Source: Cyclobacteriaceae bacterium
GTDB taxonomy: Bacteria; Bacteroidota; Bacteroidia; Cytophagales; Cyclobacteriaceae
Assembly (NCBI GenBank): GCA_019638285.1
Contig: JAHBUB010000016.1
Coordinates: 1 to 64,000 of the forward strand
Reading direction: 5' to 3'
Length of the DNA stretch: 64,000 nucleotides
Part shown: in pieces, positions 42,419-54,486 of the stretch
Position numbering within the stretch: position 1 is the first letter of the stretch
Layout: every line of letters starts with the position of its first letter
The notes under the pieces: model-generated
Seen by the model: only the letters and a program-made list of their open reading frames with translations
The model's database searches: none
What the model was told of the DNA's origin: nothing
Translations under genes and position numbers: made by a program

Positions 42419-43375
42419 ATGGAAGTAACATCAGAAAATATCCTGAATGTGACCTTGTTAGAACCGAAACAAAAACATCCTACTATTTTTGTGCGGTATG
42501 ACGAATTGAAAGAGGGTGAGAGTCTGATAATACACAACGACCACGATCCTAAGCCACTATACTACCAACTGTTGGGTGAAAGAGGCAATGTCTTTACCTG
42601 GGAATACCTGGAGGAAGGGCCAGATTGGTGGAAAGTAAGAATACGGAAACGCATTATTGGCGAAAATGAAGAAACACTGGGGCAACTGGCTGCAAAAGAT
42701 TTACGTAAAGTAGCAGTTTTTAAAAAATATGGCTTAGACTTTTCTTGTGGTGGCGAAAAAACAGTAAAAGAAGCGTGCGCTGAAAAGGGCTTGGATGTGA
42801 CTAAAGTAGAGCAGGAGTTACAACAAACTGAAAAAGCACCGGCATCACGTCCTATTCCATATGATGAGTGGAATTTGGATTTTCTTTCAGATTATATTGT
42901 GAACACACATCATAGTTACATCCGAAAAAATTTACCGGATATTACTACTTATTCCAATAAAGTAATGGAAGTGCACGGTGATCGTCATCCTGAATTGATT
43001 GAAATAAATAATCTAGTAAAAAAAATGGGTTCGGAATTAAATGCCCATATAGAGAAGGAAGAAAAAGGATTGTTTCCAATAATTAAGGTATTGGTAAATG
43101 GAAATAGGGATGCATCTCCGCAAAAAATTCCTGGTTCTAAAGATTTTCAACACTTTCTAGATATACATGAAGCAGAACATGCGTCAGTTGGCAACGAATT
43201 AGATCAGATCAGAATACTATCTAACAATTATACTCTACCTGAAGATGCCTGTGCCAGTTACACTCTGCTATATCGTATGTTAGATGAATTTGAAGACGAC
43301 CTTCATTTACACATCCATCTTGAAAACAATATCCTTTTCCCAAAGGCGATTAAATTGGTTAAGCAATTATCATAG
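42419..43375 (+). CDS. ric: RIC protein with N-terminal DUF2249 domain
   Basis: A 318-residue protein. Residues 1-78 form a DUF2249 domain; 85-140 a DUF542 domain with FSCGGEKTV; the rest a hemerythrin di-iron domain with HHSYIRK, HGDRHPEL, IEKEEKGLFP, HEAEHASV and HIHLENNILFP. This form combines a redox-partner-like DUF2249 domain with the Fe-S repair machinery. It is a paralogue of the RIC at 35615-36352. It lies 31 bases after the single DUF2249 gene. The remaining 43376-43482 gap shows no gene. Confidence 0.9.
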   Translation: MEVTSENILNVTLLEPKQKHPTIFVRYDELKEGESLIIHNDHDPKPLYYQLLGERGNVFTWEYLEEGPDWWKVRIRKRIIGENEETLGQLAAKDLRKVAVFKKYGLDFSCGGEKTVKEACAEKGLDVTKVEQELQQTEKAPASRPIPYDEWNLDFLSDYIVNTHHSYIRKNLPDITTYSNKVMEVHGDRHPELIEINNLVKKMGSELNAHIEKEEKGLFPIIKVLVNGNRDASPQKIPGSKDFQHFLDIHEAEHASVGNELDQIRILSNNYTLPEDACASYTLLYRMLDEFEDDLHLHIHLENNILFPKAIKLVKQLS

Positions 43376-43482: not shown

Positions 43483-44292
43483 ATGAAATCCATTAATGCT
43501 AATACTAAAATCGCTTACCTAATTAAAGAGCACCCTGATGCATTGGAGGCAATCATAAGCATTGATTCTAAGTTTCAAAAACTGAGGAACCCGTTGCTGA
43601 GAAAAGTGCTTGCAGGCCGCACTAGTATTGCCATGGCATCAAAGATGGCAGGCTGTAAGGTCAGTGATTTCTTTCTTAAACTTAAACCACTGGGATTTGA
43701 AATTGATACCAATAACTTACCTGTAAATGAGGAAAGAAAAGAATTGCCTTCCTTCATCACCTCTCTTACCAAAAATCAAATTATTGACTTTGATGTACGT
43801 GATATACTGGCATCTGGCAAAGATCCATTAAATCCTATTTTAGAAAAAGTAAAGTCTATTCAGACTGGGGAGGCATTAAGGATTATCAACACCTTCGAAC
43901 CGGTACCTTTAATTAAAATGCTGGAGAAGAAGGGGTTCCTTACCTATGCTGATGTAATTAGCAATGACTTGGTTGAAACCTACTTTTATAAGAAATCGGA
44001 TAAGGCTGGCATTGATATGGCGCCAGCCGAAAAAGCAGGGCATGGTTGGGAAGATGTAATGCAACGATTTGTTGATAAATTGGTTACAATAGATGTAAGA
44101 GAGTTAGAAATGCCTCAACCCATGCTTACCATTTTATCGGAACTTGATAAATTACCAGCTGAAAACGCACTGTATGTGTATCACAAACGCATACCTGTTT
44201 TTTTGTTACCCGAACTTACAGATAAAAAATTTGACTATCGCATAAAAGAAATAAGTGATGGCGAAGTCCATCTTTTGATTTTTAAGAACTAA
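43483..44292 (+). CDS. DUF1858-DUF2249-DUF2249 fusion protein
   Basis: A 269-residue cytoplasmic protein. Residues 1-75 form a DUF1858-like helical domain (AYLIKEHPDALEAI, AGRTSIAMASKMAG). Residues 95-165 form a DUF2249 domain (IDFDVRDILASGKDPL, IINTFEPVPLIKMLEKKG). Residues 195-269 form a second DUF2249 domain (IDVRELEMPQPML, VYHKRIPVFLLPEL). The set is recurrent next to NO-linked oxidoreductases; the function is not known. It ends 2 bases before the next gene. Confidence 0.82.
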   Translation: MKSINANTKIAYLIKEHPDALEAIISIDSKFQKLRNPLLRKVLAGRTSIAMASKMAGCKVSDFFLKLKPLGFEIDTNNLPVNEERKELPSFITSLTKNQIIDFDVRDILASGKDPLNPILEKVKSIQTGEALRIINTFEPVPLIKMLEKKGFLTYADVISNDLVETYFYKKSDKAGIDMAPAEKAGHGWEDVMQRFVDKLVTIDVRELEMPQPMLTILSELDKLPAENALYVYHKRIPVFLLPELTDKKFDYRIKEISDGEVHLLIFKN

Positions 44293-44293
44293 T

Positions 44294-45584
44294 ATGTTCA
44301 TAGCAGGCAGCAATAGCCCTATTAAAAACATTTCGTATAAAGTGGTGCTGCCATTTTACGGATATGCTGCTTTATCGTTTTTGCTTGCTACAATTTTAAT
44401 GCTGATGGACACCTCAGCGTTTACTCAACATTATTTTAGCCCTCATACATTAAGCCATTACCCATACCATGGCCTTAGGTTGGGGCAGCAAGATTATTCT
44501 GGGTGCGAGTCACCAGTTGTTTCCGGTATTGATTGAAGGGAAACTACATAGCAACTTCTTGGCTTACCTCTCGTTTATTTTTGCAGCTACAGGCATCCCT
44601 TTGCTAGTTTTTTCTTTTTACGAATTTGATATGGGTATGATGGCCCGTACAGGGGCAACGCTTATCAATCTTGCTGTAATTAGCTATTTCGTCAATCTTT
44701 GGTTAAGCATGTCGAATACTAAAAAGCAAAATGTACATGCTGTATTTGCTTTTACGTCAGTTTTGTGGCTATTCTTAACGACCGGACTGGGACTTCTGCT
44801 GATCTGGAATTTTACATCACATACACTTTCAAATGATTCCCTTCACTACCTTTCACTTCATGCGCATCTGGGTATAATAGGATGGTTTTTATTGATGATA
44901 ATAGGAGTGGGCTCCAGGTTGATACCTATGTTTCTCATTTCTAAGTATGAAAACACAACAAAATTATGGTGGATTTATGCGCTGATCAATATTGGATTGT
45001 TAAGTTTCCTCTTCCTTTTTCTTTCATCACCCCGATCAGAATTGTATTTTATTCCAATTGCTCTTATTAGTTCAGGTATAATTCTATTTGGGAACCATAT
45101 CTACCGATCATTTGCTAAGCGCATCCGCAAGAAAGTGGATGAACAGGTAAAAATTTCTATGCTTTCGGTGGCCTTTATTATCATTCCAATAATTGTCATG
45201 GTCGCAATTATTGCATTCTTTACAACAGTAAGTAGTACCCAGTTGGCACTACTTTATGGATTCACTATTTTTTTTGGTTGGATAACGGCCATTATTTTAG
45301 GTATGACTTTCAAGACACTTCCCTTTATTGTTTGGAATAAGGTGTATCATAACATTGCGGGTTTGGGAAAAACGCCTAACCCCAAAGAGTTGTTTCTCAA
45401 TAGTGTTTTCATTGTCAGCGGAGTTTCCTATCTCATTGGCTTCCTGGTTTTTGGATTGGGGATCATTCAAAGAAATACTTTAATATTAAATGTTGGAGCT
45501 ATTCTTCTTCTCGTAACCGCTGTGTTATATAATTTCAATGTTTTTATAATTCTATTTCATAAAGCAAAAATAAATGAACGTTAA
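44294..45584 (+). pseudogene. Heme-copper-oxidase-I-like/NnrS-like membrane protein, frameshifted
   Basis: The reading frame is split by a one-base insertion. The first 53 codons (from ATG 44294) run to about 44452 (FSPHTL), where the sequence TTAAGCC should be TTAGCC; the next frame then continues HTMALGWGSKIILGASHQLFPVL and runs to 45584. Without the extra base the product has about 429 residues and about 12 membrane helices. The histidine-rich motifs HTMALGWG, GASHQLFPVL and HAHLGIIGWFLLMIIGVGSRLIPMF suggest heme or metal ligands as in the heme-copper oxidase or NnrS superfamilies. It sits between the DUF1858-DUF2249 gene and sufT. Assembly error cannot be excluded. Confidence 0.72.
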
Positions 45585-45899: not shown

Positions 45900-46331
45900 A
45901 TGCTTAGCAATACTTGTAAAACTGCTATAAAAGCTGTCATTTATCTTGCTTCGAAGGATGAGTCTGGCGAAAAGTCTGGCGTAAAGGAGATAGCTAGATT
46001 TATCAATGCAAGTGAACATACTGTTAGCAAGATATTGCAAACACTGACAAAGCAGAAAATAATTAATAGCATTAAGGGGCCAACCGGTGGATTTTACATT
46101 ACTACAAAGCAGCGCAAAAAACCGATAATAACCATTGTTGATACCATTGATGGGAAGGATCTATTTAATGAATGTGGTTTGGGATTGAGTAAATGTTCTT
46201 CTACACATCCTTGCCCCATTCATGATGAATATAAGAAGGGAAGAGAGGTTATTCAAAAATTGTTTAAGACTAAAACGATCAACGTATTGTGTGAGCCGGT
46301 AGAAAGCGGGTTGGCTTATCTGATAGGTTGA
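45900..46331 (+). CDS. Second RrF2 family iron-sulfur regulator
   Basis: A 143-residue RrF2 regulator, paralogous to the one at 34863-35297. The helix-turn-helix lies in residues 5-68 with wing GPTGGFY. The cysteine trio is Cys92, Cys99 and Cys105 in CGLGLxKCSSTHPC. It starts 2 bases after the sufT-like gene, in the same operon. A palindrome 46339-46357 lies between it and the next gene. This suggests a second NO- or Fe-S-sensing circuit. Confidence 0.88.
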   Translation: MLSNTCKTAIKAVIYLASKDESGEKSGVKEIARFINASEHTVSKILQTLTKQKIINSIKGPTGGFYITTKQRKKPIITIVDTIDGKDLFNECGLGLSKCSSTHPCPIHDEYKKGREVIQKLFKTKTINVLCEPVESGLAYLIG

Positions 46332-51747: not shown

Positions 51748-52299
51748 ATGCATCAAAATTCTATATTATTATTATTTCTAGCTTTAGCAGTTATAGCTGT
51801 CATTGTTTTTACCTATGTATATCTTTCTTCAAAAAACGCAGAGCAATCGGAACAGGGAATGGCACAGCCGTTGAAGAAACGATTTTGGTTTCTACTTATC
51901 TTGTTTGTGATACTTGCAATTTTTGCTTCGGTGACTATTCCAAAGTCACCCTATTTTCTTTTTGCGGATGAAACTCCGGCAAAAATCGTTCATGTTTCGT
52001 CCATGCAGTTTGCCTTCTTTTTATCCGAGCATGCCATTGACCCAAAAAATCCATCTGGAGAACCCATAGAATTACCAGTAAATGAACTCGTTGAATTCAG
52101 GGTGACGAGCTTAGATGTAAATCATGGCTTTGCAATTTATGATGGATCCAATAGATTAATTACCCAAACTCAGGCAATGCCCGGTTATGTAAACCGCCTT
52201 CGTTATAAGTTTACGGAACCAGGTACCTATAACATCCTATGTTTGGAGTACTGTGGAATGGCACACCAGATCATGAGATCATCTTTTATTGTTAAGTAG
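51748..52299 (+). CDS. Heme-copper oxidase subunit II with CuA site
   Basis: A 183-residue electron-entry subunit. Two N-terminal membrane helices (about 7-26, 45-62) anchor a cupredoxin domain that has all CuA ligands: His126, Cys165, Glu167 backbone, Cys169, His173 and Met176 (CLEYCGMAH). The complete site indicates that cytochrome c or a similar donor delivers electrons. It is followed after 22 bases by subunit I, whose active site is unusual, so it may belong to an NO reductase rather than an oxidase. Confidence 0.88.
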   Translation: MHQNSILLLFLALAVIAVIVFTYVYLSSKNAEQSEQGMAQPLKKRFWFLLILFVILAIFASVTIPKSPYFLFADETPAKIVHVSSMQFAFFLSEHAIDPKNPSGEPIELPVNELVEFRVTSLDVNHGFAIYDGSNRLITQTQAMPGYVNRLRYKFTEPGTYNILCLEYCGMAHQIMRSSFIVK

Positions 52300-52321
52300 G
52301 AATCTGTAAAATATACATGTC

Positions 52322-53764
52322 ATGGAATCAATAAAATTAAGAAAAATCACTTCTGTTTGGATATTAGCTGTATTCGTTTTGTTTATCGTCAGCATCATCC
52401 TGGGGATACTCATGCGGCTCAATCAAGGAGGGGTTATAAATCAAAATCCTGTTACTTTTTACGCTAATATGACTACTCATGGACTTACTATGATTGGTAT
52501 TTGGTTTGTGGCTGGGATGGCAGCGATTAATTATTTGATGGAGCGGTATGTAAAAACAAGCTATACTGTCAATTTGATTGCATTAGTACTTACTGTGATT
52601 GGGGTGTTAATGTTCTGGGTTTCTACTTTCATAGGAAAATTTCATGCTGCGTGGACTTTTCTTTATCCGTTGCCCTTTAAGCTTTTGGGAGCTGAGTCTT
52701 GGTCAACACTTTTATTTTTGTTAGCCTTAACAATATTTGGTATAGGATGGCTGATTTGGAGCGTCAGTTTAATGACCCAGATACTTAGGAAATATTCTAT
52801 ATCTCAAGCATTTGCCTGGCAACATTTTAAGAAAAACCCTTCTGTTGATACGCCTCCGTTTATTCTTATTTCCATGATTACGTTGATTGGCGTTATTGCC
52901 AGTCTTTTAGCTGCGGTGGTTTTACTTGCTTTGTTGTTCGCTGAGTATTTCTCTAATGGAAGCTTTGTGAATGATGCGCTGTTGATGAAAAACCTTACCT
53001 ATTTCTTTGGACATACCATTGCCAACGAAATGCTTTACTTAGGCTTGGCTGTTATTTACGAGTTATTCTCTGAAGTGAGTGGAAGACCAAAATGGAAAAC
53101 CACATGGTATGTAGCTCTGGCATGGAATTGTACCCTAGTATTTATTCTTACTGCCTTTTTCCATCATTTGTACATGGATTTCGTGCAACCGGAAGGGTTT
53201 CAAATTATTGGACAGATGGCTTCCTATCTGGCAAGTTTACCTGCCGCAGGGGTCACCGTGTTTAGTGTTCTTATTGCTGTCTATAGGACTAAAATGAAAT
53301 GGACACTGACCAACTTATTATTTTTTATTGGTGTTGCTGGATGGGTTATTGGAGGATTGGGTGCGGTAATTGACGCTACAATCTCAAATAATGTGGTACT
53401 GCATAATACGCTTTGGGTGCCCGCCCATTTTCACACTTACAACGCTATGGGGAATGTGTTGTTTAGTATCGGATTCTTTTACTGGTTCTCTACTCAATTT
53501 GCAGAGAATATTAAACCAGAGAGATTTACAAAATGGACATTGGCTACGCTGCTTATTGGCGGGGCTGGGTTTCTGTTGGCTTTTTATTATGGAGGAGCCG
53601 ATTCAATTCCTCGCAGGTACAGTGTTTACCCCGCGGAGCTTTCTATTGGGGCACCTTGGGCTGTAGTCGGAGCTATTTTTGCGACTGTTTACCTGATCGC
53701 GATCTTGGTATTCTTTTATAATATTTCTAAAAGATGTTTAAAAATATTGTCTTCACCATCATAA
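52322..53764 (+). CDS. Heme-copper oxidase subunit I, no active-site tyrosine; candidate NO reductase
   Basis: A 480-residue catalytic subunit with about 12-14 helices. It is closest to the B (ba3-like) group: VVLHNTLWVPAHFHTYNAMG resembles the ba3 signature. Low-spin heme histidines are His53 and His371; CuB ligands His231, His281 and His282; high-spin heme ligand His369. In the B and A families a tyrosine stands four residues after the first CuB histidine (HPxVY). Here the sequence is HTIANEMLY, with Asn235 at that place, Glu236 next, and no tyrosine at the C-family position of the next helix (I275). Loss of this tyrosine is a mark of NO-reducing members of the superfamily. An O2-reducing role cannot be ruled out. 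SCO starts inside its last 31 bases. Confidence 0.82.
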   Translation: MESIKLRKITSVWILAVFVLFIVSIILGILMRLNQGGVINQNPVTFYANMTTHGLTMIGIWFVAGMAAINYLMERYVKTSYTVNLIALVLTVIGVLMFWVSTFIGKFHAAWTFLYPLPFKLLGAESWSTLLFLLALTIFGIGWLIWSVSLMTQILRKYSISQAFAWQHFKKNPSVDTPPFILISMITLIGVIASLLAAVVLLALLFAEYFSNGSFVNDALLMKNLTYFFGHTIANEMLYLGLAVIYELFSEVSGRPKWKTTWYVALAWNCTLVFILTAFFHHLYMDFVQPEGFQIIGQMASYLASLPAAGVTVFSVLIAVYRTKMKWTLTNLLFFIGVAGWVIGGLGAVIDATISNNVVLHNTLWVPAHFHTYNAMGNVLFSIGFFYWFSTQFAENIKPERFTKWTLATLLIGGAGFLLAFYYGGADSIPRRYSVYPAELSIGAPWAVVGAIFATVYLIAILVFFYNISKRCLKILSSPS

Positions 53765-54486
53765 CGATAATCTTTGCTTTAATAGCAAATGCGCAAACGG
53801 CATCAACAGGTATGGAGGAGGAGTCGAATATCTATGAAAAGTTATTTGATGTACCTCTACATGTAAATGATGGGCAACAGATTGCCTTCAGTACACTGTA
53901 TCATCAAAAGCCGTTGCTGGTAGCGCTTATCTTTACCCGATGCTCGGGCATATGCAGTCCGTTTTTATTGCAGTTAAAAGACAATGTGCAATTAAAACCG
54001 GATGATAAGTCATTTCAGATTTTAGTAATAAGCTTTGATCCCAGAGACGATCTGGAGGACATGGGTGTTATGGCGCGCAAATTTGGATTGGAAAACGACC
54101 CTCAATGGGTTTTTGCCGTAACCGATAGCATTGAGCAACTCAATCACTCCATCGGATTCCATCCCGTTTGGGATAGTGAGAGTGATCAATTCGATCATGA
54201 TGCACTTTTGGTTGGCATAAATGGAGAAGGTTACATTACCAAAAAATTAATTGGAATCAGGAAAAGACATGATCTAGATTTGCTGATCAGTAGCGTGAAT
54301 AATGTTTTCTCTCCTACCTATCGTTTGCCAAGTAAGAACTCCTTGTTTTCCTGTTTTAATTATGATCCTAAAACAGGAAAGAATACACCTGGATTGGGGC
54401 TGCTCTTCATAGCATTGCCGGCAGTTTTAACGGTATTGTTGCTTATTTTTATCAGTCGTGTTGTGCACAACAGATTGCCTGATTAA
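53734..54486 (+). CDS. SCO family copper chaperone
   Basis: A 250-residue periplasmic thioredoxin-fold protein that inserts copper into the CuA site of subunit II. The signal peptide ends IANAQ. The copper-binding set is Cys70 and Cys74 (FTRCSGICSPF) and His155 (DHDALLV). A C-terminal membrane helix (about 218-245) anchors it. It overlaps the subunit I gene by 31 bases, so the two are translated together. Presence of SCO supports a working CuA site in subunit II. Confidence 0.9.
   Translation: MFKNIVFTIITIIFALIANAQTASTGMEEESNIYEKLFDVPLHVNDGQQIAFSTLYHQKPLLVALIFTRCSGICSPFLLQLKDNVQLKPDDKSFQILVISFDPRDDLEDMGVMARKFGLENDPQWVFAVTDSIEQLNHSIGFHPVWDSESDQFDHDALLVGINGEGYITKKLIGIRKRHDLDLLISSVNNVFSPTYRLPSKNSLFSCFNYDPKTGKNTPGLGLLFIALPAVLTVLLLIFISRVVHNRLPD

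Follow-up and report, generated by a model that had tools for sequence, protein, structure and literature searches.

By its sequence, the haem-copper subunit I operon described here belongs to sNOR (norSY-senC), a family with a published name that has been proposed to reduce NO. We further infer from sequence, with a probability of about 0.75, that its three genes code for a nitric oxide reductase of the sNOR type, with NO as the substrate. The operon lies in 64,000 nt of DNA from a Cyclobacteriaceae bacterium (GCA_019638285.1, JAHBUB010000016.1, positions 1-64,000; hereafter the window), where three closely packed genes on the forward strand (51748-54486) encode a CuA subunit II, a haem-copper subunit I and an SCO/SenC protein. 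The features are as follows.

51748..52299, +, CuA subunit II (NorS-like), 183 aa; PF00116, 33.5 bits
52322..53764, +, haem-copper subunit I (NorY-like), 480 aa; PF00115 (COX1), 181.9 bits
53734..54486, +, SCO1/SenC copper chaperone; PF02630, 28.8 bits; CSGIC at 70-74
53012..53014, +, codon of His231, first CuB ligand, from the translation; His in 89/89 covering rows
53024..53026, +, codon of Asn235, where O2 reductases have their cross-linked Tyr, from the family alignment
53036..53038, +, codon of Tyr239, the same in all covering rows of the family alignment
53057..53059, +, codon of Tyr246; the ba3 O2 reductase too has a Tyr in this alignment column
45900..46331, +, Rrf2-family regulator (PF02082, 76.6 bits), 5.4 kb upstream; nearest candidate regulator, context only
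42419..43375, +, DUF2249-ScdA_N-hemerythrin (RIC-type) protein, by domain matches; context only

Subunit II and subunit I are separated by 22 bp, and the start of the SCO gene overlaps subunit I by 31 bp. All six metal-binding histidines of subunit I (53, 231, 281, 282, 369 and 371) are present in the translation. These residues, Asn235 in place of tyrosine, the adjacent Glu236 and Tyr239 had been read exactly in the first-pass annotation, which had also reported a full CuA subunit II before and an SCO gene after subunit I. Both neighbours were confirmed. Subunit II matches PF00116 and, when aligned to T. thermophilus CuA (2lln/3eh3), has the ligands His126, Cys165, Cys169, His173 and Met176, while the downstream protein matches PF02630 and has a CxxxC motif plus a His further on. 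An AlphaFold2 model of subunit I (pLDDT 85.8, pTM 0.89) has 12 transmembrane helices when residues 291-320 are taken as one. The top whole-fold matches of subunit I were O2 reductases, which shows a shared fold and no more.

Of 85 subunit II rows, 84 show the CuA motif; L060, with an insertion ahead of the last Met, is not matched by the pattern. Seven of the 85 rows (L078, L082, L085, L086, L087, L088 and L092) carry an extra N-terminal CxxCH stretch, and it matches Cytochrom_C in Pfam in both of those scanned (L078 and L092). This stretch points to cytochrome c as a donor in the family, and the donor of the window's enzyme is most likely a periplasmic cytochrome c.

In the proposed mechanism, electrons would enter subunit II at CuA and move on to the low-spin haem in subunit I, whose ligands we take to be His53 and His371 by the usual ligand pattern. 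From there they would reach the haem/CuB site (His369; His231, His281 and His282), where two NO and two protons would be converted to N2O and water. SCO would load the copper. With Asn235 in place of the cross-linked Tyr, the enzyme would lack the residue that serves in O-O cleavage in O2 reductases. In the host, NO would come from NirK and N2O would go on to NosZ.

Placement among haem-copper oxidases

In a maximum-likelihood tree of 62 rows, the window fell into a 26-row clade (support 100/100) with 21 relatives, two rows labelled AOB-type by their AMO genes alone, Ruegeria pomeroyi and Thermomicrobium. The A-type, B-type (with ba3), C-type, eNOR-like (Gln) and cNOR rows formed separate clades, with 100/100 for the eNOR-like one, while the gNOR-like row L115 and the host's NorB-like row L005 sat on long branches with unsure placement. 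When the helix-VI columns 231-246 and four long rows (L115, L005, L094 and L182) were dropped, the remaining 25 rows retained an SH-aLRT of 100. Grouping within an O2-reducing clade had been named beforehand as a test, and the window falls outside such clades, in the sNOR clade (100/100). The earlier proposal of a candidate CuA-type NO reductase was probably right. A new class of CuA-NOR was also considered and was ruled out, since the clade contains sNOR-type rows.

The NOR families were reportedly defined by Murali et al. in 2024. Our sNOR label comes from three sources, the first being the operon on the Ruegeria pomeroyi megaplasmid; this species was formerly named Silicibacter. Table A4 of PMC8756737 puts Silicibacter under sNOR, and we infer that the megaplasmid operon is the sNOR meant there. 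The second source is the AMO-bearing genomes, 12 among 399. Haem-copper proteins were looked for in the eight whose AMO matches scored best, and two of these eight genomes, from a Burkholderiales-order sample, have the subunit II / I / SCO set. The norSY-senC set is described as a gene set of ammonia oxidisers in the relevant part of PMC4940428. The third is a Methylomirabilis row (L070), and sNOR is reported in other Methylomirabilis members in passages of PMC6094997 and PMC8906906. Moreover, Table A4 of PMC8756737 gives Asn for sNOR at the place of the oxidase Tyr. With a profile made from six close relatives, the AOB-type, Ruegeria, Parasedimentitalea (a 363-residue piece) and Thermomicrobium rows scored 246-389 bits and the best O2 reductase scored 83.

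Named genome contigs were scanned, giving 250 matching stretches; a relative is encoded by 228 of them, and the best 80 of the 228 were kept. These best 80 are mainly from Bacteroidota, and also from Ignavibacteriota, Acidobacteria, Methylomirabilis, Burkholderiales and others. The same scan found the three-gene operon in Cerina litoralis F89 and Gelidibacter japonicus. Among the loci of the best 80 of 228 with enough flank, subunit II is directly upstream of subunit I in 73/75 and SCO is directly downstream in 74/77. Together with class relatives, plasmid copies and AMO-bearing genomes, the best 80 of 228 make up a family set of 96 rows, 90 of them distinct, of which 89 cover helix VI. Virus-borne copies were also searched for; 182 stretches matched the pattern and none of them encodes a relative.

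Helix VI and the substrate

In the profile alignment, His231 coincides with the first CuB His, and Asn235 takes the position of the Tyr in the mitochondrial oxidase; in the Thermomicrobium relative (L094) the same Asn is aligned to the Tyr of T. thermophilus ba3. Counted from the first CuB His (H), which is itself retained in all 89 covering rows, Asn at H+4, Tyr at H+8 and Tyr at H+15 are found in 89/89. Residue 236 varies (Glu in 67 rows, Ile in 10, Leu in 7, Ala in 4 and Val in 1). In 25/25 A-type rows, H+4 is Tyr and H+8 is Leu; the H+4 Tyr that marks A- and B-type enzymes is Asn235 in the window. In C-type (cbb3) enzymes, the helix-VII Tyr sits six residues ahead of the HH pair, and the C-type rows of the tree display this pattern. 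No such tyrosine stands in as a replacement in the sNOR rows, where column 275 is Ile or Val in 89/89. The cNOR rows (L139, L144 and L145) have Glu at both H+4 and H+8, the places of Asn235 and Tyr239 in subunit I. For eNOR, Table A4 of PMC8756737 gives Gln at H+4, again the place of Asn235.

Going by PMC6967387, the role of sNOR may be either NO removal or O2 respiration. For Nitrococcus mobilis, its passages on sNOR refer to indirect evidence that the enzyme reduces NO, the sole kind of activity evidence named in the literature consulted. The same source notes that sNOR transcripts of N. europaea are up under O2 limitation, and it argues from them for a high-affinity terminal oxidase, in passages that do not name Tyr239. 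Along this line, sNOR might be a high-affinity O2 reductase, or an enzyme for both O2 and NO, that manages without the cross-linked Tyr and has a redox-active Tyr239. The retention of Tyr239 in 89/89 family rows, against Leu in 25/25 A-type rows, agrees with this idea, and so does the predicted sharing of helix 219-252 by Tyr239 and His231. However, going by helix spacing alone, the AlphaFold2 model puts Tyr239 two turns along from His231, probably more than the usual His-Tyr bond could bridge unless the helix is distorted, and we consider an O2-reducing role unlikely. The first-pass annotation had kept Tyr239 as an alternative to the lost tyrosine; the shared helix supports it, but the model places the residue two turns on and cannot show a covalent link.

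In a related but still more doubtful scenario, the invariant Tyr239, one turn past the lost Tyr, would take over the function of that Tyr, so that NO and O2 are both reduced without a His-Tyr cofactor. If true, this would break the rule of the superfamily that separates O2 from NO reductases. Under the NO-reductase reading that we prefer, the two invariant tyrosines of this helix, Tyr239 and Tyr246, probably border a route by which protons reach the active site. The useful details added to the known sNOR are the Asn235/Tyr239 pair, residues that may bear on the question of NO versus O2, and the cytochrome c fused to subunit II in 7/85 relatives.

Host genome and neighbourhood

The host genome encodes a NirK (473 bits) and a clade II NosZ (940 bits), and a search of it for cytochrome cd1 gave no match. 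Five host proteins match PF00115, namely the window's subunit I, an A-type oxidase, a cbb3 CcoN, a ccoN-like protein whose score falls short of the ccoN cut-off, and a NorB-like protein. No second NOR-type site was found among these five. The host thus already has A-type and cbb3 oxidases, which argues against an O2-reducing role for sNOR. The co-occurrence with NirK argues in the same direction: NirK scored over its cut-off in 4/7 sNOR-bearing genomes and 16/288 other genomes (Fisher p 4.8e-4), in a sample of 295 genomes of one class that has seven positives, one of them (G066) with a broken copy, and by a statistic that ignores kinship. Without the window's own genome the counts are 3/6 and 16/288 (p 0.004). 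With NirK and NosZ both in the host, a role in denitrification is as likely as one in detoxification.

The host NorB-like protein (L005 / L170:3596-5420, G000:C42) scores 39.6 bits to cNOR 4xyd. A small cytochrome c gene precedes its gene, and an Rrf2 gene is beside it. In alignments, the first FeB His and the two Glu are missing from it, and the second of the paired C-terminal haem His is replaced by Met. No relatives of it were found on plasmids at 1e-10. C-type-like subunit I frames were also seen (L003, L122, L123, L138 and L143). Of these, the two scanned against Pfam (L003 and L138) have about 200 and 140 N-terminal residues without a match; both are stop-to-stop frames and the true starts may be later. 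The host's C-type-like copy (L169) is close to RIC and Rrf2 genes. The Bacteroidota MAG SZAS-44 has two distinct sNOR copies (L022 and L083), 79% and 64% identical to the window's.

The stretch of about 17 kb upstream of the operon encodes two RIC/ScdA-type proteins, one DUF2249 protein and two Rrf2 regulators. The surroundings had been called rich in NO-repair genes, and these genes are indeed present, but the NnrS label of 44454-45584 is sub-threshold (11 bits, cut-off 28) and there was no significant excess over controls. An Rrf2, RIC or DUF2249 gene lies within 6 kb in 17/65 sNOR loci and 4/23 control haem-copper loci (p 0.29), after 15/80 sNOR loci (from the best 80 of 228; <10 kb) and 1/24 control loci (<9 kb) were left out. 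The counts were 17/65 and 6/23 (p 0.61) with an NnrS-like model included, which picks up the cbb3 subunit itself in controls L163 and L168. Against the 17 A-type/cbb3 controls outside the own genome, a subset picked post hoc, they were 17/65 and 1/17 (p 0.06). As evidence for the substrate the NO-repair neighbourhood was set aside, the difference being not significant, and it is at most a weak hint for NO. A compact DUF2249-NnrS-like-PaaD cassette was found in 4/65 sNOR loci (L014, L025, L060 and L083) and 0/23 controls, too few to weigh.

Rrf2 is directly upstream of subunit II in 7/83 loci, including Ruegeria and Parasedimentitalea, a count in which L007/L041 and L008/L046 are the same contigs. 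NO-responsive control is therefore possible in some lineages. With Rrf2 adjacent so seldom and the neighbourhood signal weak, the suggestion that the operon detoxifies NO sensed by its Rrf2 neighbours is speculative. The reading frame at 44280-45584 encodes a multi-helix protein next to DUF2249 with a weak NnrS-like match, and some of its relatives weakly match COX1. It is out of frame with its N-terminal part when compared with the uninterrupted homologue in L014, either because the gene itself is frameshifted or because the assembly is wrong here.

Named systems and annotation

The norSY-senC(-orf1) genes of Nitrosomonas and other ammonia oxidisers resemble the window's in the order subunit II / I / SCO, in Asn at H+4 and Tyr at H+8 and H+15, and in clade. 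In contrast, orf1 is absent after the window's SCO, where the next gene is on the other strand, and the residue after Asn is Glu in the window and Ala in both AOB-type rows, one of which (L147) is 32% identical to the window's subunit I. The Ruegeria pomeroyi operon (L093) has the family's Asn/Tyr/Tyr and gene order, and its subunit I is 34% identical to the window's over 89% of the protein. It has an Rrf2 gene directly upstream and divergent, whereas the nearest Rrf2 of the window is 5.4 kb off, and it adjoins a cbb3 operon and a formate/nitrite transporter gene. T. thermophilus ba3 (B-type) shares the haem-copper fold, the CuA subunit II and the Tyr at H+15, but it has the cross-linked Tyr at H+4, Leu at H+8 and a separate clade.

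CuA NOR type II of Bacillus azotoformans and Geobacillus is described in part of PMC3475470 with 12 helices, a Tyr-to-Asn change and an SCO/SenC gene. By that account, type II has 12 rather than 13 helices, a shorter subunit I and two rather than one N-terminal helices in subunit II. Compared by description only, this 'qCuANOR type II' build (12 helices, Tyr to Asn, SCO gene) is like the window's, and the window's subunit II has two N-terminal hydrophobic stretches by eye. The Bacillus and Geobacillus type II is also described with a protein of 4-5 helices, a possible third subunit (PMC3475470).

Asn at H+4 is also given for CuANor in Table A4 of PMC8756737, and PMC3475470, where it treats naming, writes sNOR beside type I and notes that its Nitrosomonas eutropha homologue had received the name sNOR, so that sNOR and type I are joined in the older naming. 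The window might accordingly belong with bNOR (CuANOR type I) instead of sNOR, which we regard as very improbable. Later work separates bNOR (formerly CuANOR) from sNOR, as stated in PMC11388526, and we follow this use rather than that of PMC3475470 from 2012. Moreover, the window has a type II build (480 aa, 12 predicted helices), as has an AOB-type row by length (507-residue frame), and these are comparisons of build, the tree having included no bNOR row.

A relative in G066 (L010) has two internal stop codons in its sNOR subunit I, which suggests that the gene is decaying in some lineages. Such decay, and a plasmid copy (L095) in pieces with a 363-residue frame, might hint at a decayed or moonlighting oxidase paralogue without a catalytic role, but this is highly implausible for the window, with its ligands, CuA site, SCO and operon intact and with the first CuB His and Asn/Tyr/Tyr retained in all 89 rows covering helix VI.

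Annotation tends to label such genes cytochrome c oxidase, and in PMC11388526, where KEGG is discussed, sNOR is said to be named coxA there. NO reduction in Bacteroidota with NirK and NosZ may therefore be overlooked. The best NCBIfam match of the window's subunit I is CtaD/CoxA, far under its cut-off, and the Ruegeria and Thermomicrobium copies carry cbb3-type oxidase labels.
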